A stretch of 11,013 nt of DNA from Candidatus Phytoplasma phoenicium (GTDB lineage Bacteria; Bacillota_I; Bacilli_A; Acholeplasmatales; Acholeplasmataceae), in contig NZ_JPSQ01000034.1 in NCBI RefSeq assembly GCF_001189415.1, positions 1 through 11,013 on the forward strand. The letters are read 5' to 3'. Below, piece after piece: positions 1 to 11,013 of this stretch. Made by a program: the position numbers and the translations under genes. The notes below the pieces were generated by a model, which was given only the letters and a program-made list of their open reading frames with translations, ran no database searches and was not told where the DNA came from. Numbering within the stretch: position 1 is the stretch's first letter; every line of letters begins with the position of its first letter.

Positions 1-1
1 A

Positions 2-2416
2 ATGATATTTAATTTTTGGAAAAATTTTTTCAATTCTTCAAATAAGTATTTAAAAAAAATTAAACCTAAGGCTTTACAAATAGAAAAATTAAATGATTTT
101 TACTCGAAATTCAAAAATGAACAATTTATTGCAGAAACAGAAAAATTTAAACAAATGTATCGCAACGGAACTTCTTTAGATGAACTTTTAGTACCAGCTT
201 TTGCTTTAGTTTGTGAAGCGTGTAAAAGAATTACTGGTTTAACTCCTTATCATGTCCAAATACTTGGAGCTATTGTTTTACATCAAGGACAAATTATAGA
301 AATGAAAACGGGAGAAGGGAAAACTTTAACTTCTGTTTTGCCTGCTTACTTAAATGCTTTAAGCGAAAAAAGCGTCCATATTGTTACTGTGAATGAATAT
401 TTGGCGCAACGCGAAGCTCAGGGACAAATTGGAGATATTTTTCGTTTTTTAGGCATATCAGTTGGTTTAAATACTAAAGATAAGAATTTTCAAGAAAAAA
501 AACAAGCTTATAGTTGTGACATTCTTTATTCTACCAATAGCGAATTAGGTTTTGATTATTTAAGAGATAATATGGCTACAGATATTAATGAAGTTTTAAT
601 GCAAAAAGAATATAAGTATGCTATCATAGATGAAGTTGATTCTATTTTAATTGATGAATCGCGTACTCCTTTAATTATTTCTAGTCGTGCTCAAAAAGGC
701 AAAAAATTTTATCATGATGCTAATCGTTTTGCTAAAATCTTAAAAGAAAACAATTATATCATTGATTTAGAATCAAAAACTATTGAATTAACTGAAGAAG
801 GTATTAAAAAAGGTGAAAAGTTTTTTCAAATAAAAAATTTATATAGTAATCATAATCGCCACTTACTTCACTTTATTAAAAACGCTTTAAAAGCTTGTTT
901 CCTTATGGAAAAAAATAAAGATTATTTAGTAGATAAAAATCAAATTTTAATTATTGATAAATTTACAGGTAGAATTTTACAAGGTCGTCAATTTAGTGAT
1001 GGTTTACAACAAGCTTTAGAAGCTAAAGAAGGTTGTAGTATTAAAGAAGAAACTGAAATTTCCGCTACAATTACTTATCAAAATTTTTTTCGTATTTATG
1101 AAAAATTATCTGGTATGACTGGAACAGCCAAAACTGAAGAAAAAGAATTTATTAGTATTTACAATACCAAAGTTATTGAAATTCCTACTCATAAATTAAT
1201 GATTAGAGAAGATGCACCTGATTTTGTATTTACTACTATGCAGGCAAAATGGGAAGCTTTATTGAAAGAAGTTGAATATAGATATCAAAAACAACAACCA
1301 GTTTTAATTGGAACAGTAACTGTAGAAACATCAGAACACATTTCTCAAAAATTAAAAAAACAAAAAATTCCTCATTTTGTTTTAAATGCTAAAAATCATT
1401 TCAAAGAATCCGAAATTATTGCTAAAGCGGGTCATAAAGGTTCTATTACTATAGCTACAAATATGGCAGGTCGTGGGACAGATATTCGTTTAGGCGAAGG
1501 TGTTGTTGAGTTAGGTGGATTAGTGGTTTTAGGAACAGAAAGGCATGAATCTAGAAGAATTGACAATCAATTAAGAGGACGTGCAGGTCGCCAAGGAGAT
1601 CCTGGTTTTTCAAGATTTTTTGTTTCAGGTGAAGATGATTTAGTCAAACGTTTTGGCGGAAATCAAATTCAAAGATTAATTATGTTATTGCAAAAAACAC
1701 AAATAAATAATAATAACCCTACTTCTTCCAGAATTTTTACAAAATTTATTACTAATTTACAAAAAAAAATCGAATCTTTAAATTTTAGTTATCGTAAATT
1801 TATTTTACAATTTGATTCTGTATTAGGTTTTCAAAGAAACATCATTTATCAACAAAGAAAAGATATTTTAACATCAGATAAAATCGAAGATATTGTTTTT
1901 CCTCTAGTGATTAAAACTTTGCGTGCTAAAATAATTACTTTTATGAAACATCAAAATCATTTAAAAGAAGAAAAAGACTTTAATGATTTAATTTATTATT
2001 TAGAAAATTTATTCTTTCCTCCTAAAACATTTGTTATAAAAGAATTCAAAAACATTAATAATAATATTATGAATCGACAAGAAATATTACAATTAATAGA
2101 AAAAAAAGTCGAACATCTTAAGGAAGAACAAAAACAAAAATTCAACAAAAACCAAAAAAATCATTACAGTATTATTTTAAAATTAATTATGTTACGTAAT
2201 ATTGATACAAATTTTAAACGTCATATTGTAGATATGCATGTTTTAACCAAAAGTATTAATTTTGTTAGTTATGGTCAAAAAGATACTTTAATTACTTATC
2301 AGCAAGAAGGACAAAAGTTTTTTAATCAAATGATCGACAATATCTCTTTTGATATTACACGTTTGGTTTTAAAATTATCTCTTTTGGAAGAAGAATTTAC
2401 CAAAATATTAAATTAA
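2..2416 (+). CDS. secA: Protein translocase ATPase subunit SecA
   Basis: SecA is the cytosolic motor that binds preproteins and pushes them through the SecYEG channel by ATP hydrolysis. Seen in the 804 residues: Walker A MKTGEGKT (101-108), Walker B-like [10 protein letters not shown] (210-219), the [10 protein letters not shown] motif (371-380), and in the second helicase-like domain [10 protein letters not shown] (486-495) and [13 protein letters not shown] (523-535). The helical scaffold ([10 protein letters not shown], 598-607) and a helical-wing-like end (LRNID...YGQKD, about 731-761) follow. The protein stops soon after, with no C-terminal Cys-rich zinc tail, and is shorter than the roughly 840-residue Bacillus form. 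The ATG at base 2 gives a normal SecA N-terminus, so the gene is probably complete, but its ribosome binding site lies outside the window. prfB follows 91 bases later. In phytoplasmas the Sec route exports secreted effectors and surface proteins. Confidence 0.97.
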
Positions 2417-2493
2417 AATTAATTTTTTTAGATATTATCTCTCAAATAAAATATTGGCAATATATAAAAATATGATTGTCTATTTTTTGTCAT

Positions 2494-2498
2494 AAGGA
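2494..2498 (+). promoter_or_regulatory. Ribosome binding site of prfB
   Basis: AAGGA lies 9 bases before the prfB ATG. It supports that start, and no upstream short leader frame with an internal stop is needed. Confidence 0.6.
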
Positions 2499-2507
2499 TA
2501 CAAAAAT

Positions 2508-3605
2508 ATGGAAAAATATGAATTTAATAAAATTTTAGAAAATTTAAAAATAATTTTGTCTAATTTAGCTCATAAAATTGATTTAAAAAAACAAAATAAG
2601 AAAATTACTCAATTAACTAAATCAATGGAAAAACCAGATTTTTGGAATGAAAATCCTAATATGACTGCTACTATGCGCACATTGCATCAAATACAAGCTC
2701 GCATTAATATGTTTAATGAATTTCAAAAAAGATTTCAAGATTTAGTTACAATGAATGAATTTACAGATGAAAAACATTCTGATTTTAATTTGTTAATTGA
2801 AGAATTACAAAATATCCAAAAAAATATTAAAAATTTTGAAATCGAAATTTTATTAAATCAACCTTATGATTCGAATAATGCTATTATAACTTTACATTCA
2901 GGTGCTGGTGGTACCGAATCACAAGATTGGTGTGAAATGTTATTTCGTATGTATCAAAAGTATGCTCAAAAAAAAAATTTTAAATCGAAAATTTTGTATA
3001 TGCAAAAAGGAGAAGAAGCTGGATTAAAATCTATCAGTTTTACAATTGAAGGTTTGTATGCTTATGGTTATCTAAAATCTGAAATGGGAGTGCACCGATT
3101 AATACGTGTTTCTCCTTTTGATTCTAATGCTAAACGACATACTTCTTTTGCTTCTTGCGAAGTATTACCAGAAATTAATGAGAAAATTATAATTGATTTA
3201 AAAATTGAAGATTTAAAAATTGATGTTTTTCGTAGTAGCGGGGCAGGCGGCCAACATGTTAATACGACTGATTCTGCTGTGAGAGTTACTCATTTACCTA
3301 CGAATATAGTTGTTAATTGTCAAAACGAAAGAAGTCAAATTAAAAATAGAGAAAAAGCTTTACATATTTTAAAAACTAAATTATGGCAATTAGAAGAAGA
3401 TCGTAAAAAAGAAAATCAAAAAAATTTTACCAAAGGTCAAAAAGATATTAGCTGGGGATCTCAAATTCGGTCTTATATTTTTCATCCTTATCAAATGGTG
3501 AAAGATCACCGTACTAATTGTGAAGTATTTCAAATAAATTTAGTAATGGATGGTCATTTGGATGATTTAATTAATGCTTTTTTAATACAATCCATAAATC
3601 AATAA
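2508..3605 (+). CDS. prfB: Peptide chain release factor 2 (RF2)
   Basis: RF2 reads UAA and UGA stop codons and triggers peptide release in the ribosome. Its 365 residues match the family's usual length. Seen: N-terminal helical domain ending in EKPDFWNE (41-48), SGAGGTESQDW (131-141), the anticodon-like tripeptide SPF (202-204) that distinguishes RF2 from RF1, and the catalytic GGQ (247-249) in SGAGGQHVN. Many bacteria need a programmed +1 frameshift at an in-frame UGA near codon 25. Here that place reads Ile-Asp (ATT GAT, 2577-2582) in one open frame, so no frameshift is required. A run of ten A (2968-2977) sits inside the gene. It follows secA as in Bacillus. The presence of RF2 implies that UGA is a stop in this organism, unlike in mycoplasmas that lost RF2. 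Confidence 0.97.
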   Translation: MEKYEFNKILENLKIILSNLAHKIDLKKQNKKITQLTKSMEKPDFWNENPNMTATMRTLHQIQARINMFNEFQKRFQDLVTMNEFTDEKHSDFNLLIEELQNIQKNIKNFEIEILLNQPYDSNNAIITLHSGAGGTESQDWCEMLFRMYQKYAQKKNFKSKILYMQKGEEAGLKSISFTIEGLYAYGYLKSEMGVHRLIRVSPFDSNAKRHTSFASCEVLPEINEKIIIDLKIEDLKIDVFRSSGAGGQHVNTTDSAVRVTHLPTNIVVNCQNERSQIKNREKALHILKTKLWQLEEDRKKENQKNFTKGQKDISWGSQIRSYIFHPYQMVKDHRTNCEVFQINLVMDGHLDDLINAFLIQSINQ

Positions 3606-3715
3606 AAATAACGTGTATTTTGATAACAATAGGTTTTTTTTAAAATTAAAAACATTTTTGGTCATATACAATTAATTTATTAGTTGATAAAAATATATTG
3701 AGTAAAGTAAAGAAA

Positions 3716-4432
3716 ATGACAGTTATGTTAAAATTAAATAAAGATAAACATTATTATTTCAACATTTGGCTGACTAAATGGTTTTGGATGATTTTTTATA
3801 CATTACTTTTATCTTTAGGAGTTTATTTTTTTACTTTTGGATTTCAATTAGTGACTGGAGGGTTAGACGGTTTAACTGTCTTAACCATAGAAATTTTACA
3901 AAATTGTGGTCTGCCAAATGATTATATACCCCGAGTAGAATATTTATATGGATTTTACAATATTATTAGTTTAATAGCGGGATATAAGGTTTTTGGTAAA
4001 GATTTTTGTTATCATACTGGTATTTTATGTATCATCTTATGTTTAAGTGTTTCTTTTTTAAGTTGGCTTTTCGGCGACATTAGTATTGTAACCTGTTACC
4101 TCAGTCCTAATGATTATTTTAATTTAATTTTTGTTTCTATTGCAAGTGGTATCTTATTTGGTATTGCTTTAGGAAATATTCGTAAATATAAATATACCAC
4201 TGGTGGAATGGATATTTTTCAAAAAATTTTAAAAGATATTTATGGTATAAATTTTATTTGGGTTGTTTTCATAACTGATGGAGTTTTAATATTGCTAACA
4301 GCAATCATTATTGCTACGAAGAATCATGATTTAATGCAATTTATTATTAGATTTTTTTGCTCTTATTTATCTTCTTTTATTATGAGTTGTATTATCGAAA
4401 AAATCGCTCCTGAAATTCAAAGTGTTAAATAA
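3716..4432 (+). CDS. YitT/UPF0750-family integral membrane protein
   Basis: A hydrophobic protein of 238 residues from this ATG, function unknown. It resembles the membrane domain of the YitT family (YitT, YvjA and relatives in Bacillus). Evidence is a set of about six membrane-spanning stretches and the paired glycine motifs typical of the family: TGGLDG near residues 47-52 and TGGMDI near 162-167, each following a membrane segment. The cytosolic C-terminal DUF2179 domain of Bacillus relatives is absent, since the chain ends shortly after the last hydrophobic stretch. The start is uncertain. TTG at 3698 adds six residues, ATG at 3725 removes three, and none has a clear ribosome binding site. 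The gene follows prfB by about 110 bases, the position yvjA holds in Bacillus as I recall. No substrate can be named. Confidence 0.8.
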   Translation: MTVMLKLNKDKHYYFNIWLTKWFWMIFYTLLLSLGVYFFTFGFQLVTGGLDGLTVLTIEILQNCGLPNDYIPRVEYLYGFYNIISLIAGYKVFGKDFCYHTGILCIILCLSVSFLSWLFGDISIVTCYLSPNDYFNLIFVSIASGILFGIALGNIRKYKYTTGGMDIFQKILKDIYGINFIWVVFITDGVLILLTAIIIATKNHDLMQFIIRFFCSYLSSFIMSCIIEKIAPEIQSVK

Positions 4433-4537
4433 CATTTAAATAATTTTTATTAATTTTTTGGCATAATTATTCTATAAATTAAAAATTTAAATTATTTTTT
4501 TGTTTTTATAAAAAAATATTTTAAAAAATAAATAAAA

Positions 4538-4557
4538 AAGCCCATAAACATGGGTTT
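4538..4557. terminator. Terminator-like hairpin, possibly bidirectional
   Basis: An 8-pair stem (AAGCCCAT / ATGGGTTT, with one G-T pair) closes a 4-base AAAC loop. It is the only G+C-containing hairpin in the gap. Reading rightwards it is followed by a moderate T-rich stretch (GAATTTCTTTATAC), enough to end the block-1 transcript. Reading leftwards the tail is a much better T tract, CTTTTTTATTTATTTTTT. It therefore may work on both strands, although no minus-strand gene lies in the window. Confidence 0.5.
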
Positions 4558-4593
4558 GAATTTCTTTATACAAATTTTTTATTTAGATAAATA

Positions 4594-4599
4594 TATAAT
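4594..4599 (+). promoter_or_regulatory. Candidate -10 box for the nadE operon
   Basis: A perfect TATAAT 54 bases before the chosen nadE start, downstream of the hairpin. No convincing -35 hexamer is found 16-19 bases upstream. In sequence this A/T-rich such boxes arise by chance, so support comes mostly from position. Confidence 0.3.
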
Positions 4600-4640
4600 T
4601 TATTAAAATATTTGAAAATTTTTATTTTATTTTTTTATTT

Positions 4641-4647
4641 AGAAAGG
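4641..4647 (+). promoter_or_regulatory. Ribosome binding site deciding the nadE start
   Basis: AGAAAGG ends 6 bases before ATG 4654. This favours that ATG over the in-frame TTG at 4612, whose extra 14 residues are mostly Phe, Leu and Ile and lie outside the nitrilase fold. Confidence 0.6.
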
Positions 4648-4653
4648 TTTCTT

Positions 4654-6402
4654 ATGTATCACAATGGTTCGATTAAAATAGAATTAGCTAGTCCTAATTT
4701 ATATGTTGGCAATCCTATGAAAAATGCTCAGAGTATTTTACAAATTTTAAATCAAAGTAAAGCTAGTTTTGTTTTATTTCCTGAATTATGTTTGAGTAAT
4801 TATACAGCAGGAGATTTATTCTTTGATACAACTTTTTATCAGGAAATTTTAGAGGCTCTTGTGTTTATTATGAAATATAATGGTTTTCCTGGAGTATATT
4901 TGTTGGGGATGCCTTTTGTATTAGAGGAAATTATTTTTAATGTAGCTATAGTTATTCAAAAAGATAAAATTTTAGGCATTGTGCCTAAAAAAACTATTCC
5001 TAATTATAAAGAATTTAGTGAAAAAAGATGGTTTCAATCTGGTAAACATCTACCAACACAAATAATTGATTTTTTAGGACAAAAAGTTTCAATAGGGGAC
5101 ATTTTATTTATTAATTCTCAATTTGATATAATGTTTGGAGTAGAAATTTGTCAAGATTTATGGACTATAGAATCGCCTAGCGATTTATTAACTTTGAATG
5201 GCGCTCATCTTATTTTTAATTTATCTGCTTCTACTGAACATACTGGCAAAACTATATTACGTAAAATGGCTGTTTTAGATCATTCACGTAAACAAATAGG
5301 TGGTTATTTTTATACTAGTAGCGGCATTACTGAATTAAATGCTGATACTTTATTTTCAAATCATAAAATAGCTGCTGTTTTAGGAGAAATTATTGGAGAA
5401 AAAAATTTATCTTCTTCAGATGTGAGTTTAGTAGTTGATGTTTTTGTAGATACTATTAAGTATCAAAGAAGAATTGATACTACGTATAGCGATCAAAGAA
5501 TAGGTAAAAAATTTAATTTTTTTAAATCTTTTTTTACATTAATAGAATCTAATGATTATATTTTTGAAAAACCTTTTGCTACTCAACCTTTTATTAATTT
5601 TAACTCTTCTTTATTAGAAGAATTAAAATTAGCTAATATTATTCAAGTTTCATCTTTAAAAAGTAAAATAAATCAATTAGAAGTTAATATAAAAATTATT
5701 TTACATATGACTGATCAATTAGATGTGTTTTTAACTCTTTTAGTGTTAATACAAAGTTGCGAACATACAACATATTTATCTCGTTTATTAATTGTAATCA
5801 ATACTAACATGTTCCAAAATAAACTTTTGTTATCGCAACTTAAAAAATTTTTGGATCAAATGAATATTGTTTATATCCAAGAAGATAAGATAAAAAATCA
5901 TATAAAACAAGAACACGCTCGCAATCAATTGCCTAAAATGATTTTGGAGAGTTATAATTTATCTGATATTGCTTTAGGTCAAATAACTTATCAAAGGTAT
6001 TCAAGTGATTATGTTTATAATACTAATATAGGGATTTCACATACTTTTATGGTCGAATTAATAAAATTTCATTTTGACAATTCTACAATTTCATTAAATC
6101 AAGCCATAAAACAAATTTATTTGCAAAAAATAACCGAATTTTTAACCCAAAATATAATTATAGAAGATTTTATTTTATATCATCATTTAACGAATAATTT
6201 TACTCAAAACAAAATTGCTTCTTTGATCCATCAAACTTTTGATATAACCAAAACAAAAAGCTTGCAATTAGTTTCTTCATATATGCAACGTTTTTATCAA
6301 GCACAAAATAAGAGGCAATATATTTCATCTGGACCTAAAATTTTTGCTTATAGCCTTTCATATCGTACAGAATTAAAATTACCGATATTTATGAAGAATT
6401 AA
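4654..6402 (+). CDS. nadE: Glutamine-dependent NAD synthetase homologue, synthetase domain degenerate
   Basis: The family converts nicotinate adenine dinucleotide to NAD, using ammonia freed from glutamine by an N-terminal nitrilase-type domain. In this 582-residue protein the glutaminase triad is visible: Glu44 (FPELCLS), Lys112 (VPKKTIP) and Cys166 (VEICQDLW). The C-terminal half aligns with the mycobacterial/eukaryotic form through LSDIALGQITY (436-446) and SGPKIFAYSLS (559-569). Yet the ATP-pyrophosphatase loop SGGLDS is replaced by TDQLDV (353-358), roughly 12 residues with most of GTGD before LSE are missing, the Lys of the VPKT motif reads His, and the loop after it is shortened. The length is below the 640-680 of that subfamily. 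The second half is therefore unlikely to adenylate its substrate. The frame is fully open, so it is called a gene rather than a pseudogene; an early decaying pseudogene remains possible. It heads the block containing mnmA, 30 bases downstream. Confidence 0.85.
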   Translation: MYHNGSIKIELASPNLYVGNPMKNAQSILQILNQSKASFVLFPELCLSNYTAGDLFFDTTFYQEILEALVFIMKYNGFPGVYLLGMPFVLEEIIFNVAIVIQKDKILGIVPKKTIPNYKEFSEKRWFQSGKHLPTQIIDFLGQKVSIGDILFINSQFDIMFGVEICQDLWTIESPSDLLTLNGAHLIFNLSASTEHTGKTILRKMAVLDHSRKQIGGYFYTSSGITELNADTLFSNHKIAAVLGEIIGEKNLSSSDVSLVVDVFVDTIKYQRRIDTTYSDQRIGKKFNFFKSFFTLIESNDYIFEKPFATQPFINFNSSLLEELKLANIIQVSSLKSKINQLEVNIKIILHMTDQLDVFLTLLVLIQSCEHTTYLSRLLIVINTNMFQNKLLLSQLKKFLDQMNIVYIQEDKIKNHIKQEHARNQLPKMILESYNLSDIALGQITYQRYSSDYVYNTNIGISHTFMVELIKFHFDNSTISLNQAIKQIYLQKITEFLTQNIIIEDFILYHHLTNNFTQNKIASLIHQTFDITKTKSLQLVSSYMQRFYQAQNKRQYISSGPKIFAYSLSYRTELKLPIFMKN

Positions 6403-6411
6403 TAAATTCAT

Positions 6412-6417
6412 AAAGGA
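6412..6417 (+). promoter_or_regulatory. Ribosome binding site of mnmA, unusually distant
   Basis: AAAGGA lies in the nadE-mnmA gap but ends 15 bases before the ATG, further than the usual 5-10. No ATG, GTG or TTG in frame lies closer to it, and the protein start is fixed by the family (a few residues before the SGG loop). Confidence 0.45.
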
Positions 6418-6432
6418 AATATAAATAAAATT

Positions 6433-7575
6433 ATGAAAAAAAAAGTTATTATCGGTTTATCTGGTGGAGTAGATAGTAGTGTGGCAGCTTTTTTGTTGAA
6501 AACACAAGGTTATGAAGTTGAAGGAGTTTTTATGCGTAATTGGGATAGTAGTTTGAATTATGATATTCAAGGAAATCCTTATTTAAAAGAAAATATTTGT
6601 CCGCAAGAACAAGATTTTCAAGATGCTTTACAAGTCGCACAACAATTAAATATTAAATGTCATAAAGTTGATTTTTCAGAAAAATATTGGGAACAAGTGT
6701 TCTCTGTTTTTTTAAAAAAATTACAACAAAATTTAACTCCGAATCCTGATGTTTTGTGTAATAATCGTATTAAATTTTCTACTTTTATCCAATATGCTCA
6801 ACAATTTAAACCGGATTATATTGCGATGGGTCATTATGCTAAAATTGGTTATTATCAAAATAAACCTATTTTAATGAAAGCTGTTGATAAAAATAAAGAT
6901 CAAACTTATTTTTTATCACAATTAAAACAACAACAACTAGAAAATGTTTTGTTTCCTTTAGGAGATATGACAAAAACAACAGTCCGAAAGATCGCTTTAA
7001 GAGAAAAATTCATTACAGCTAAAAAAAAAGATTCCACTGGGATTTGCTTTATTGGAGAAAGAAAATTTTTTAGTTTTTTAAACAATTATTTGCCAAAAAA
7101 TAAAGGTTATATTGAAGATATGCAAGGTAATATATTGAAAGAACACGAAGGAGTTGTTAAATATACTATTGGTCAACGTAAAGGACTCAATTTAAAAGTA
7201 ACAAAAATGAATCAAGCGCCTTGGTTTGTAGTGGGAAAAAATTTACAAACCAATACTCTTTATGTGGATCAAAGTTATGATAGTGATTATTTGTATAGTG
7301 ACGCTGCTTTAATTGTAGATGTATCCTGGAGAAACAAAGATATTTTGCAAAATCATGGTAAAATAAGAATGAAAGCTAAATTTCGTTACCGCCAAATTGA
7401 ACAAGAAGTCATATTACACTGGTTGACAAGTAATACTTTGAAAGTTGAATATCCACAAAAAATTAAATTAGTTACTCCAGGACAAATTTGTGCTTTTTAT
7501 AAAGATGATGTTTGTTTCGGTGCAGGCGTTATTCAAGAAGTGTATTTACAAAATAAAAAAATGTTATATACTTAA
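6433..7575 (+). CDS. mnmA: tRNA-specific 2-thiouridylase MnmA
   Basis: MnmA activates U34 of Lys, Glu and Gln tRNAs with ATP and places sulfur on it, taken from a cysteine-desulfurase relay, which sharpens codon reading. Its 380 residues are a normal length. Seen: the ATP-pyrophosphatase loop SGGVDSS (10-16), NPDVLCNNRIKF with catalytic Cys109 (104-115), GHYAKI (133-138), STGICFIGER with the second catalytic Cys205 (201-210) and YTIGQRKGL (244-252), then the C-terminal beta-barrel. All key residues are present, so it should be active. Two runs of nine A occur: at codons 2-4 (6436-6444) and just before the Cys205 motif (7021-7029). It lies 30 bases after nadE and 80 before the rel ATG, probably co-transcribed. 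Its intact loop contrasts with the broken equivalent in nadE next door. Confidence 0.97.
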   Translation: MKKKVIIGLSGGVDSSVAAFLLKTQGYEVEGVFMRNWDSSLNYDIQGNPYLKENICPQEQDFQDALQVAQQLNIKCHKVDFSEKYWEQVFSVFLKKLQQNLTPNPDVLCNNRIKFSTFIQYAQQFKPDYIAMGHYAKIGYYQNKPILMKAVDKNKDQTYFLSQLKQQQLENVLFPLGDMTKTTVRKIALREKFITAKKKDSTGICFIGERKFFSFLNNYLPKNKGYIEDMQGNILKEHEGVVKYTIGQRKGLNLKVTKMNQAPWFVVGKNLQTNTLYVDQSYDSDYLYSDAALIVDVSWRNKDILQNHGKIRMKAKFRYRQIEQEVILHWLTSNTLKVEYPQKIKLVTPGQICAFYKDDVCFGAGVIQEVYLQNKKMLYT

Positions 7576-7582
7576 ATATTTT

Positions 7583-7613
7583 TTCTAAATTCTTTTAGAA
7601 TCATTTTATGATT
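7583..7613. repeat. Two overlapping short hairpins between mnmA and rel
   Basis: TTCTAAA / TTTAGAA (7583-7589 with 7594-7600, 4-base loop) overlaps AATCAT / ATGATT (7599-7604 with 7608-7613, 3-base loop) by two bases. The stems are A/T-rich and no long T run follows, so neither is a good terminator. They could be a processing site or chance. Confidence 0.25.
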
Positions 7614-7636
7614 AAAAAGTATTAATGTAAGAAGTT

Positions 7637-7644
7637 AAAAGGTG
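7637..7644 (+). promoter_or_regulatory. Ribosome binding site of rel
   Basis: AAAAGGTG precedes two possible starts in the same frame: TTG 7653 (AAAAGG ends 10 bases before it) and ATG 7656 (13 bases). The ATG is taken here. The difference is one residue. Confidence 0.5.
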
Positions 7645-7655
7645 TTGAGTATTTG

Positions 7656-9884
7656 ATGGTGGAAAACAATAATAAAAAAATTCCATATAATCAAGAAGAA
7701 TTTTTATATCAAGAATTAATGAAAAAAATTCATAAATACATTGATTGCCCAAATTTTTTAGATAGAATTCAACAAGCTTATATTTTAGCCAAACAAAAAC
7801 ATGCTAATCAAAAAAGAATTACAGGCGAAGATTTTATTATTCATCCTTTAAATATTGCTATTATTTTAGCTGAATTACAAAGTGAACCACATACTATTAT
7901 GGCTGGGCTTTTGCACGATTCTTTAGAAGATACCGATTTAACTTTTGAGGAATTAAAACAACATATGGGTGAGGATGTAGCTTCTATTGTTGAAAAAACA
8001 ACTAAATTAAATAAGATTGTTTTTAATAAAAATCAAGCTCAAATAGAAAATCAACAAAAAATGTTTTTAGCAATGGCCATGGATATTAGGGTGGTGTTAG
8101 TTAAAATTGCTGATCGTTTACATAATATGCAAACTTTACAAATCATGCATTTAGAAAAACAAATTAATATTTCCAACGAGACATTAGCTATTTATGTACC
8201 TTTAACACATCGGTTAGGATTATTCCAAATTAAGTCACAATTAGAAGATTTAGCTCTCCGTTATACGAACCCTCATGAATATTATCGTATTGCTCATTTG
8301 ATCCGAAAAAAAACAAATGAAAAAGAAAAATCTATAGATTTTATTATTAAAAATATTGAACGTTTATTTTATAAAACAGGTATTCAAAATTTTCATATTA
8401 ATGGACGTAGCAAGAATATTTACAGCACTTACAAAAAATTAAAACAAAGAAATGTTTTTTTTGAAGAAATTTTTGATTTATTAGCGATTCGTATTATTGT
8501 TGACAATATAGATGCATGTTATCAATGTTTAGGAATTATTCATGCTAATTATTCTCCTTTGCCTAATCGTTTTAAGGATTATATAGCTGTACCTAAAGCT
8601 AATTTATACCAATCTTTACATAACACTGTTTTATCCAAAGATGGCACTATTTTCGAAATTCAAATTAGAACGAAAGAAATGGACGACATCGCGGAAAAAG
8701 GAATTGCTTCACATTGGAGTTATAAAGAAAATAAAATTTATTCTAAAAAACATAAACAACTAGAAATTTTGCAAAAATTAAGATGGTTTAAAGAATTAAT
8801 TAAACTTACTAAAGTCACTGAAAATAATTTTCTCACTCATTCGCACAATTTTGTTAATGCTATTAAAAACGATATTTTAAGTGAAAATGTATATGTGTTT
8901 ACTCCTAAAAGAGAAGTTTTGGAATTACCTAAAGGTTCTACTCCGATTGATTTTGCTTTTCGTGTTCATTCCGATATTGGTTATCGGATGAACGCTGCTA
9001 TTGTTAATTGTAAAATCACACCTTTAAGTTATCAATTACAAAATGGAGATATTATCTCTATTAGAACTACCAAAAATTGGTTTAATGTTAAAAAAGAATG
9101 GTTAAAAAATGTTCGAACTAGTTATGCAAAAAAAATCATTAAAAAATATTTAAATCAACATTCCAAAAAAAAATCTGATTTAATTCAAATGGGTAAAAAA
9201 ATATTGGATAAAGAATTGCAACAACAAAAAATTGAATTCGTTGTTAAAACACATTTCATTGAAAATTATTTTCCACAATCAGAAATCCAAAATTTAAATG
9301 AACTTTATGAATATATTGGGAGTAAAAAAATTAATTGTCAAATTGTTGTCAAAAAAATAATTCATTTTAATAATAAACAGATTCAGAATAAGAATTCTGA
9401 ACAAAAAACACTCGAAAAATATAAGCAAATTGTTCATGAAAATTCAATTGGAGTTTTTATTGAAGGTTTGACACAAACTAAATTAAAATTAGCTAATTGT
9501 TGTTTACCAGTTTTTGATGAAAAAATTATAGGTTTTATTTCAAAAGGTAAAGGGATTAGTATTCATAGAAATCAATGTATTAATATCCAAAATTATGATT
9601 GGAATAAAATGGTACCTGCTCGTTGGTATCCTAATAATAAACTGAAATATGCTTCTTTGATCTTTATAGTCGGTTATTATAACGCTACTCTTTTAGCAGA
9701 TATCACTAATAAAACAAAAACAATGGGGATTAATGTTTTAAATTTAAAAATTTTAACACAAAAATTAACTCAAATAAATATTTGTTTAAAAGTTTTAGTA
9801 AACAATATTCAAGAAATAAATATGTTAATAGAAAATTTATCTAAGTTATTAAATATTTATAAAATTTATAGAGGTTTTAATTAA
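7656..9884 (+). CDS. rel: Bifunctional (p)ppGpp synthetase/hydrolase Rel
   Basis: Rel makes the alarmone (p)ppGpp from ATP and GDP/GTP during amino-acid starvation and also degrades it. In the 742 residues, the hydrolase domain has His63, the HDSLED motif (87-92) and KIADRLHNM (150-158). All its metal- and substrate-binding residues are present, unlike synthetase-only RelA of enterics. The synthetase domain has GRSKNIYS (250-257), IFDLLAIR with catalytic Asp274, and EIQIRT with Glu334. The usual NGYQSLH motif reads NLYQSLH (316-322), with Leu for Gly317 but the stacking Tyr318 kept. A TGS domain (about 410-469), a Cys-rich zinc-finger-like domain (Cys615, Cys616, His637, Cys641) and a C-terminal ACT-type domain (about 665-742) follow, as in full-length ribosome-associated Rel. 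hisS begins 4 bases after the stop. Confidence 0.96.
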   Translation: MVENNNKKIPYNQEEFLYQELMKKIHKYIDCPNFLDRIQQAYILAKQKHANQKRITGEDFIIHPLNIAIILAELQSEPHTIMAGLLHDSLEDTDLTFEELKQHMGEDVASIVEKTTKLNKIVFNKNQAQIENQQKMFLAMAMDIRVVLVKIADRLHNMQTLQIMHLEKQINISNETLAIYVPLTHRLGLFQIKSQLEDLALRYTNPHEYYRIAHLIRKKTNEKEKSIDFIIKNIERLFYKTGIQNFHINGRSKNIYSTYKKLKQRNVFFEEIFDLLAIRIIVDNIDACYQCLGIIHANYSPLPNRFKDYIAVPKANLYQSLHNTVLSKDGTIFEIQIRTKEMDDIAEKGIASHWSYKENKIYSKKHKQLEILQKLRWFKELIKLTKVTENNFLTHSHNFVNAIKNDILSENVYVFTPKREVLELPKGSTPIDFAFRVHSDIGYRMNAAIVNCKITPLSYQLQNGDIISIRTTKNWFNVKKEWLKNVRTSYAKKIIKKYLNQHSKKKSDLIQMGKKILDKELQQQKIEFVVKTHFIENYFPQSEIQNLNELYEYIGSKKINCQIVVKKIIHFNNKQIQNKNSEQKTLEKYKQIVHENSIGVFIEGLTQTKLKLANCCLPVFDEKIIGFISKGKGISIHRNQCINIQNYDWNKMVPARWYPNNKLKYASLIFIVGYYNATLLADITNKTKTMGINVLNLKILTQKLTQINICLKVLVNNIQEINMLIENLSKLLNIYKIYRGFN
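9871..9874 (+). promoter_or_regulatory. Possible ribosome binding site of hisS inside the end of rel
   Basis: GAGG lies within the last codons of rel, 14 bases before the hisS ATG. The spacing is long. With only 4 bases between the genes, hisS translation may depend on ribosomes finishing rel. Confidence 0.35.
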
Positions 9885-9888
9885 ACAA

Positions 9889-11013
9889 ATGAATATCAAA
9901 AAAATTAAAGGCACTAAGGATTTTCTTTTGAATGATATTTATAAATGGCAAATTATTGAAACTAAAATTAAAAATTTGTTTGAAAGTTATAATTATCAAG
10001 AAATTCGTACGCCTATTTTAGAATATAGTGATGTTTTTTATCATTCTGCACCATATTCTGATATGGTTTTAAAAGAAACTTTTCGTTTTGAAGATAAAAA
10101 AGGAAAGACCATAGTTTTAAGGCCTGAAGGAACTGCGCCTATAATTCGTAGTTATATAGAAAATAAACTAGATCGTTGGTCCAAACTAATTAAGTTTTAT
10201 TATTATGGTCCTTTTTTTCGTTATGAAAGACCTCAAAAAGGCCGTTATCGTCAATTCCATCAAATAGGAGCAGAATTACTGAATGTTCGTAATAATTTAT
10301 CTAAAATAGAAATATTATTATTAATACAAGATATTTTGTCTTTGTTACAATTAAATAAAGCCATCATTCAAATTAATCATTTAGGAGATTTAAAAACACG
10401 TCGTCAATTTTTAGATGTTTTTACTTCTTATTTACAACAAAACCAACATCATTTATGTCTTTTGTGTTTAAAACGTATGAAACAAAATATTTTAAGAATT
10501 TTTGATTGTAAAGAATGTTCTCAAAAAGATGTGATCAAAAAAGCTCCTTTAATTTTAGATTATTTAACTACCGAAAGTAAATTACAATTTGAATATATTT
10601 TAAATATTTTATCTCTTCACAAAGTCAATTTTAATATTGATCCTTATTTGGTGAGAGGGTTAGATTATTATACAGATTTTGTATTTGAAATTACTTTTTT
10701 ATTAAAAGATCAAACTATGAATTTGGTTTTAGGAGGAGGAGGTTGTTATAACGATTTAGTCAATATTTTAGGTGGTGGTTTTAATAATAATCAAGGCATA
10801 GGATTTGCTTTAGGAATGGAACGTTTACTTATTGCTTTAGAAGATAATAGTTTTTTTGACCAATTAAACCCTTTACCATCTATAGATGTTTATATATTAG
10901 TCCTTCATGCAAAATGTTTTTCAACATCTTTGTTGTTGTTGCAACAATTAAGAAAAAATCAAATCAAAACCGAAATGAATTATGAGATTGATCATTTATT
11001 TAAAAATTTAAAA
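9889..11013 (+). CDS. hisS: Histidyl-tRNA synthetase, 3' end cut by the window
   Basis: HisS charges tRNA-His with histidine. The frame opens at ATG 9889 and runs without stop to the window edge, giving 375 residues (MNIKKIKGTKDF...). Class II motifs are clear: motif 1 IRTPILEYSDVF (39-50), motif 2 with FRYERPQKGRYRQFHQ (110-125), the histidine-binding LVRGLDYYTD (254-263), and motif 3 GIGFALGMERLL (303-314) with its ATP-binding Arg312. The insertion domain holds two CxxC pairs (Cys190/193 and Cys207/210), a zinc-knuckle-like set known in some Firmicutes enzymes. The anticodon-binding domain begins near residue 332 and is interrupted, with an estimated 40-60 residues beyond the window. Position just after rel matches the Firmicutes order, minus the dtd-type genes that lie between them in Bacillus. 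aspS would be the expected next gene. Confidence 0.96.
   Translation, partial: MNIKKIKGTKDFLLNDIYKWQIIETKIKNLFESYNYQEIRTPILEYSDVFYHSAPYSDMVLKETFRFEDKKGKTIVLRPEGTAPIIRSYIENKLDRWSKLIKFYYYGPFFRYERPQKGRYRQFHQIGAELLNVRNNLSKIEILLLIQDILSLLQLNKAIIQINHLGDLKTRRQFLDVFTSYLQQNQHHLCLLCLKRMKQNILRIFDCKECSQKDVIKKAPLILDYLTTESKLQFEYILNILSLHKVNFNIDPYLVRGLDYYTDFVFEITFLLKDQTMNLVLGGGGCYNDLVNILGGGFNNNQGIGFALGMERLLIALEDNSFFDQLNPLPSIDVYILVLHAKCFSTSLLLLQQLRKNQIKTEMNYEIDHLFKNLK

Follow-up and report, generated by a model that had tools for sequence, protein, structure and literature searches.

Phytoplasmas encode a protein named in databases either NAD+ synthetase or nitrilase-related carbon-nitrogen hydrolase. We analyzed its gene (phytoplasma "nadE", here the NadE-like gene) in Candidatus Phytoplasma phoenicium, where it occupies positions 4654..6402 on the plus strand of contig NZ_JPSQ01000034.1 (positions 1–11,013; this whole stretch of 11,013 nucleotides is the window) and encodes 582 amino acids (aa) plus stop in one open frame. 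We favor, with moderate confidence, the reading that phytoplasma "NadE" is a stand-alone glutaminase, which has lost its synthetase loops and kept its amidase triad, the former synthetase half probably serving as scaffold only. Judged from the alignments, the synthetase half is very likely dead. Nicotinamide adenine dinucleotide (NAD) is likely taken ready-made from the host by a putative importer.

The synthetase site is lost in all phytoplasma homologues compared

Columns at least 90% conserved among 18 Acholeplasma-type relatives were taken as conserved in working NadE, and their fate was followed in 56 full-length phytoplasma rows. All features of the gene given here and below lie on the plus strand. 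In the former synthetase half (C-half; residues 325–582, 5626..6399) 77 of 97 conserved columns are changed and 20 are kept; in the amidase (carbon-nitrogen hydrolase) half (N-half; residues 1–285, 4654..5508), which matches PF00795, 61 of 74 are still kept. At the position of the ATP-pyrophosphatase (ATP, adenosine triphosphate) loop SGGLDS, the window protein reads TDQLDV (residues 353–358; 5710..5727), in exact agreement with a preliminary description of the window made from its letters alone. SGGxDS is present in 18/18 relatives, but in none of the 56 phytoplasma rows. The acidic residue of this P-loop is replaced by Asn in 47/56 rows, the window protein being the only one with Asp. The same description had considered about 12 residues, most of GTGD among them, to be missing. 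A deletion does exist, but it comprises approximately 25 residues just upstream (the conserved columns on either side are separated by 18 residues in the window protein versus 43–44 in relatives), whereas GTGD itself is substituted in place by ESYN (residues 432–435; 5947..5958). In this motif both Gly residues are kept in 0/56 phytoplasma rows and Asp is changed to Asn in 54/56. The conserved pocket Lys, present in 0/56 phytoplasma rows, is His463 in the window protein (6040..6042), as VPKT reads ISHT, and the NGD motif is likewise lost. Finally, the segment containing Pro-Glu-Leu and Gln-x-Thr-Glu, i.e. the P2 loop, is cut to 12–13 residues in 56/56 phytoplasma rows compared to 21 in 18/18 relatives. 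The site of this deletion was assigned from the alignment plus a structure model to residues 493–505 (6130..6168), and the model leaves two residues between the predicted flanking helices 483–496 and 499–514. The preliminary description was right on both of these losses, namely the Lys and the loop which it had given as Glu-Leu-x-Pro and Gln-x-x-Glu. It had also regarded a local sequence error as unlikely, given an intact loop in the adjacent MnmA, which indeed reads SGGVDS. Sequencing error can be rejected, because the losses of SGGxDS, GTGD, the pocket Lys and the P2 loop are common to all 56 phytoplasma proteins. Its view that the C-half is incapable of NAD synthesis appears sound. In place of the deleted YENTQAR segment, the C-half of aster-yellows-type copies (P0031, loci L021–L024; 635–648 aa) has a Thr/Asn/Glu-rich insert.

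Profile searches gave a corresponding picture. The window protein scores 25.2 bits with PF00795 (cut-off 23.2), while PF02540 (NAD_synthase) is not matched at E 0.001, nor at E 10 in six phytoplasma proteins tested. The scores with the NCBIfam NAD(+) synthase equivalogs are 267.8 bits against a cut-off of 473 (NF002730) and 100.7 against 479 (NF010588). Compared to glutamine-dependent NAD+ synthetase of the Mycobacterium tuberculosis type (PDB 3SZG, 6OFC, 3DLA), the phytoplasma protein lacks SGGxDS, GTGD, NGD, the pocket Lys and the P2 loop, and the equivalents of the nicotinic acid adenine dinucleotide contacts W490 and F634 and of the last ammonia site D497 are mostly lost in phytoplasmas. 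The nearest relatives, NadE of Acholeplasma and Alteracholeplasma palmae (P0055, P0057; 43–44% overall identity), are likewise sited before mnmA, but keep PF02540 at 127–138 bits (three tested) as well as nadD just upstream; phytoplasmas have neither.

That the phytoplasma protein continues to synthesize NAD, using an ATP site composed of different residues, is extremely improbable. In a 2011 review (PMC3322544, section 8.3.1), NadE counts as functional in each of the four phytoplasma genomes considered, an assignment made from annotation, and the two-domain NadE fold is predicted intact by the structure model. However, this reading has to accommodate the loss of P-loop, GTGD, NGD, pocket Lys and P2 loop and the extent of change in the C-half, and in addition the lack of any match for the substrate-makers NadD and PncB in 29 genomes (see below). 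In the open-licence literature searched, mostly by title and abstract, there is no report of synthetase-site loss in phytoplasmas.

The loss appears as old as the genus

Beyond what the single sequence could tell, the change is found in every phytoplasma protein examined and goes back to the genus stem. Among 1148 homologues found, the best 120 were examined for PF02540: 60 possess it and 60 do not, the latter comprising the window protein, 51 proteins of named phytoplasmas and 8 without taxon name. Trees were calculated separately for each half from 24 phytoplasma and 18 other rows. In both trees the phytoplasmas form one group next to the Alteracholeplasma palmae type, with a support of 90 for the C-half and of 51, which is weak on its own, for the N-half. 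The phytoplasma stem branch measures 0.19 in the N-half versus 1.39 in the C-half. Branch totals within the phytoplasma group are 4.33 (N-half) and 12.22 (C-half), and in the remainder of the tree 6.29 and 5.21, respectively. According to these lengths, the C-half underwent a burst of change on the genus stem, and the synthetase site was lost equally early.

Phytoplasma genomes give no match to NadD or PncB

Profile searches covered the genomes of 29 phytoplasmas and of 59 further family members. NadD is matched in 0/29 phytoplasmas versus 57/59 relatives, and PncB in 0/29 versus 50/59. The best PF02540 scores are at most 38 bits in phytoplasmas, essentially from MnmA, and at least 108 bits in 57/59 relatives. 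A second synthetase elsewhere was rejected, as 24 of the 26 best PF02540 places listed coincide with the mnmA position beside the NadE-like gene; the remaining two are the mnmA open reading frame (ORF) of genome G055 and a 378-aa frame 1.2 kilobases away in G050. These places cover 26/29 genomes (all but G049, G051 and G054) and represent the best match of each genome, not the weaker second ones of G047, G050 and G069. A NadD hidden under PF01467 was rejected as well: 8/29 genomes match, and the proteins are citrate lyase ligase (6) or RibF (2). The six phytoplasma genomes with a citrate lyase ligase (CitC) match (L115, L117, L118, L119, L120, L122) include five in which it falls just under the NCBIfam cut-off. 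The preliminary description had offered two sources of NAD. Synthesis by another enzyme found no support, since no second synthetase, NadD or PncB was found in the 29 genomes, while import is possible.

Phytoplasmas need NAD, because a NAD-dependent DNA ligase is present in 29/29 genomes. With the synthetase half dead and no NadD or PncB match, NAD would therefore have to be imported; phytoplasmas would make none themselves and would take up the finished dinucleotide. This would modify the view of the 2011 review, whose section 8.3.1 reports NadE as the sole NAD gene and deduces that deamido-NAD or a precursor is taken up. The TLC-type nucleotide transporter (PF03219) has no phytoplasma match, but no control genome matched either. 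NAD kinase (PF01513) is matched in 0/29 phytoplasmas; this model is weak in the family (45/59 relatives match, 12 of them above cut-off, the frames mostly measuring about 300–330 aa), and absence of the kinase is not claimed. A related case is Mycoplasma suis, likewise a host-dependent mollicute, which is inferred in PMC3091866 to need external nicotinamide cofactors. There, however, NAD synthase is simply missing, whereas phytoplasmas retain the protein minus one active site. Should the protein be unable to make NAD, no reaction of NAD synthesis is detected in phytoplasmas, and the complete dinucleotide must enter the cell through an importer. In that case nicotinate or deamido-NAD in a culture medium would be of no help, while NAD might be, and part of the cultivation problem becomes testable; according to the abstract of PMC3322544, phytoplasmas have resisted all cell-free cultivation.

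Gene order bears on the sequence of events. In eight relatives with the order nadD-nadE-mnmA, a NadD-like ORF is located upstream in 8/8 (by eye) and mnmA downstream in 7/8. Phytoplasmas have lost nadD, and mnmA directly adjoins the NadE-like gene in 24/26 listed genomes; a script-based check of the neighbourhood recognised mnmA at 23 of 28 phytoplasma loci. In the window, a YitT-family membrane protein gene (3698–4432) occupies the place that nadD has in relatives, and mnmA (6433..7575, plus strand; profile match) is the neighbour retained from the ancestral order. Gene content and neighbourhood fit an order in which the precursor supply was lost first and the synthetase site later: loss of NadD would have rendered the site useless and allowed its erosion on the genus stem, while glutamine hydrolysis, with its predicted release of glutamate and ammonia, would have stayed useful. 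Persistence of the nadE-mnmA neighbourhood could also speak for a non-catalytic role, the whole protein acting as structural or regulatory subunit, e.g. for MnmA or for an enzyme receiving its ammonia, and so could a predicted fold that is kept without the synthetase site. We see only a small chance for this, since the neighbourhood is inherited, being present also in relatives with a working enzyme, and a pure scaffold needs no invariant hydrolase triad.

Close pairs show purifying selection on both halves

In five close pairs, with kappa set from 1 to 3, omega (dN/dS) is 0.10–0.13 for the N-half and 0.21–0.31 for the C-half, and the highest upper 95% bound is 0.38. The slope of protein distances in the C-half on those in the N-half is 2.6 among 27 phytoplasmas versus 0.72 among 8 relatives. 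The C-half is accordingly relaxed, but not free of constraint. An open gene could be extracted from 27 of the 28 phytoplasma genomes possessing the protein.

According to the preliminary description, equal, relaxed dN/dS in both halves would have indicated plain pseudogenisation, and this test was negative. The gene could still be a slow pseudogene, which lost its role with NadD and is decaying, its frame being open by chance. Evolution of the C-half at 2.6 times the rate of the N-half would be in line with such decay, as would one genome without the gene and one with an interrupted copy (see below). We nevertheless give this explanation little credence: frames are mostly open, omega is not near 1 in close pairs, the triad is invariant and loss of the site dates to the genus stem. 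Taken by its sequence, the NadE-like gene is not a plain pseudogene. Between the two outcomes considered initially, a retained amidase with a structural or regulatory C-half fits better than decay, given purifying selection and the invariant triad. As purifying selection acts on the gene, yet one genome is without it and another has an interrupted copy, it appears to be selected but dispensable.

The amidase half retains its triad and most YRE-loop residues

The preliminary description had recognized the open frame and the amidase triad, which consists of E44, K112 and C166. Glu44 (4783..4785) and Lys112 (4987..4989) are each conserved in 59/60 phytoplasma rows with one gap, and Cys166 (5149..5151) in 60/60; hence no row that covers these positions lacks a triad residue. 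PF00795 matches 21/29 phytoplasma genomes, one match apiece and each time at the NadE-like gene, so that the 29 genomes gave no sign of another amidase of the family. In M. tuberculosis NadE, the YRE loop is the gate of the glutaminase (PMC6946656). Its equivalent in the window protein is YKEFSE (residues 118–123; 5005..5022), of which Y118, E120, F121 and E123 are present in 56/56 rows. Y118 is the equivalent of M. tuberculosis Y127, the Tyr meeting the glutamine ligand, and E120 that of E129. The C-terminal tail GPK...SLS (residues 560–572; 6331..6369) is kept, including Lys562, which is found in 54/56 rows and corresponds to M. tuberculosis K644, a residue that bonds to the YRE loop. Entropy of residues 558–572 is 0.86, as compared to 1.62 for the whole C-half and 0.79 for the N-half. 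We propose that the C-half was retained as a support for both the oligomer and the gate (E120 to K562).

Tyr118 (5005–5007) is fixed in phytoplasmas (56/56), but variable in relatives (4/18). With its fixation, the glutaminase gate would have changed along with loss of the synthetase site.

Compared to nitrilase-superfamily hydrolases such as Nit2, aliphatic amidase or N-carbamoylputrescine amidohydrolase, the phytoplasma protein has an extra 250-residue former synthetase half. The retained half might be an amidase for another substrate, e.g. an omega-amidase or metabolite-repair amidase. This is unlikely, as the YRE-loop residues including Y118 are invariant and most conserved N-half columns (61/74) are unchanged from working NadE. 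Retention as a predicted glutaminase is the best reading of the sequences.

Several points weigh against a stand-alone glutaminase. The glutaminase of M. tuberculosis NadE is activated solely by the synthetase intermediate, acting via the P2 loop (PMC6946656); by analogy, the phytoplasma enzyme, lacking this loop, could sit in a low basal state. Tyr131, which relays activation between subunits in M. tuberculosis NadE (PMC6946656), is not retained in phytoplasmas, its equivalent in the window being S122. The alignment underlying the structure model includes working NadE proteins, which biases the prediction toward their fold. Neither an enzyme or pathway using the ammonia or glutamate nor an importer of NAD was identified; for PnuC (PF04973), 0/29 phytoplasma genomes match versus 5/14 controls. 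In wider pairs (30 listed), omega according to Nei and Gojobori (NG86) has maxima of 0.44 (N-half) and 1.33 (C-half); synonymous sites are near saturation in these pairs and inference of selection uses the close pairs. Finally, the gene is not present intact everywhere. G055 (L112, G055:C1:472500-481000; 1 contig, 769,143 bases, 94% complete), one of the 29 genomes, has no NadE-like match and still possesses mnmA. In G047 (L113, G047:C1:143500-150000, 1856–3790) the frame is interrupted in the N-half, leaving ORFs of 255 and 324 aa. The ORFs upstream of mnmA in G055 resemble a mobile unit (by eye). Close relatives of G047 have intact copies, and its break is either real or a sequencing error.

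It is conceivable, if doubtful, that removal of P2 and joining of the flanking helices created a permanently switched-on glutaminase, with the C-half as fixed activator, which converts phloem glutamine to glutamate and ammonia, with all NAD arriving ready-made from plant and insect. The old C-half would, on the same tentative reading, have been a throttle firing only with NAD precursor and ATP. The phytoplasma protein offers a natural experiment on the fate of an allosterically gated glutaminase after removal of its partner active site.

Genomic context in the window

The source genome (344,581 bases in 77 contigs) is 75.9% complete. The window carries secA, prfB, the YitT-family gene, the NadE-like gene, mnmA and relA/spoT. 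Start codon ATG 4654 agrees with the starts of homologues, whereas the ORF listing begins at TTG 4612. The closest homologues of the window protein are phytoplasma proteins, with 82% identity to Ca. P. phoenicium. In other phytoplasmas the upstream neighbour is a secreted-looking Amp-like protein instead of YitT (by eye). A promoter scan returned 26 sites versus 25.2 expected. In 4300–7700, five terminator-like sites were observed on both strands versus 0.5 expected. A terminator-like hairpin with T-rich tail at 4538–4557, between the YitT gene and nadE, suggests that nadE-mnmA begins a separate transcript.
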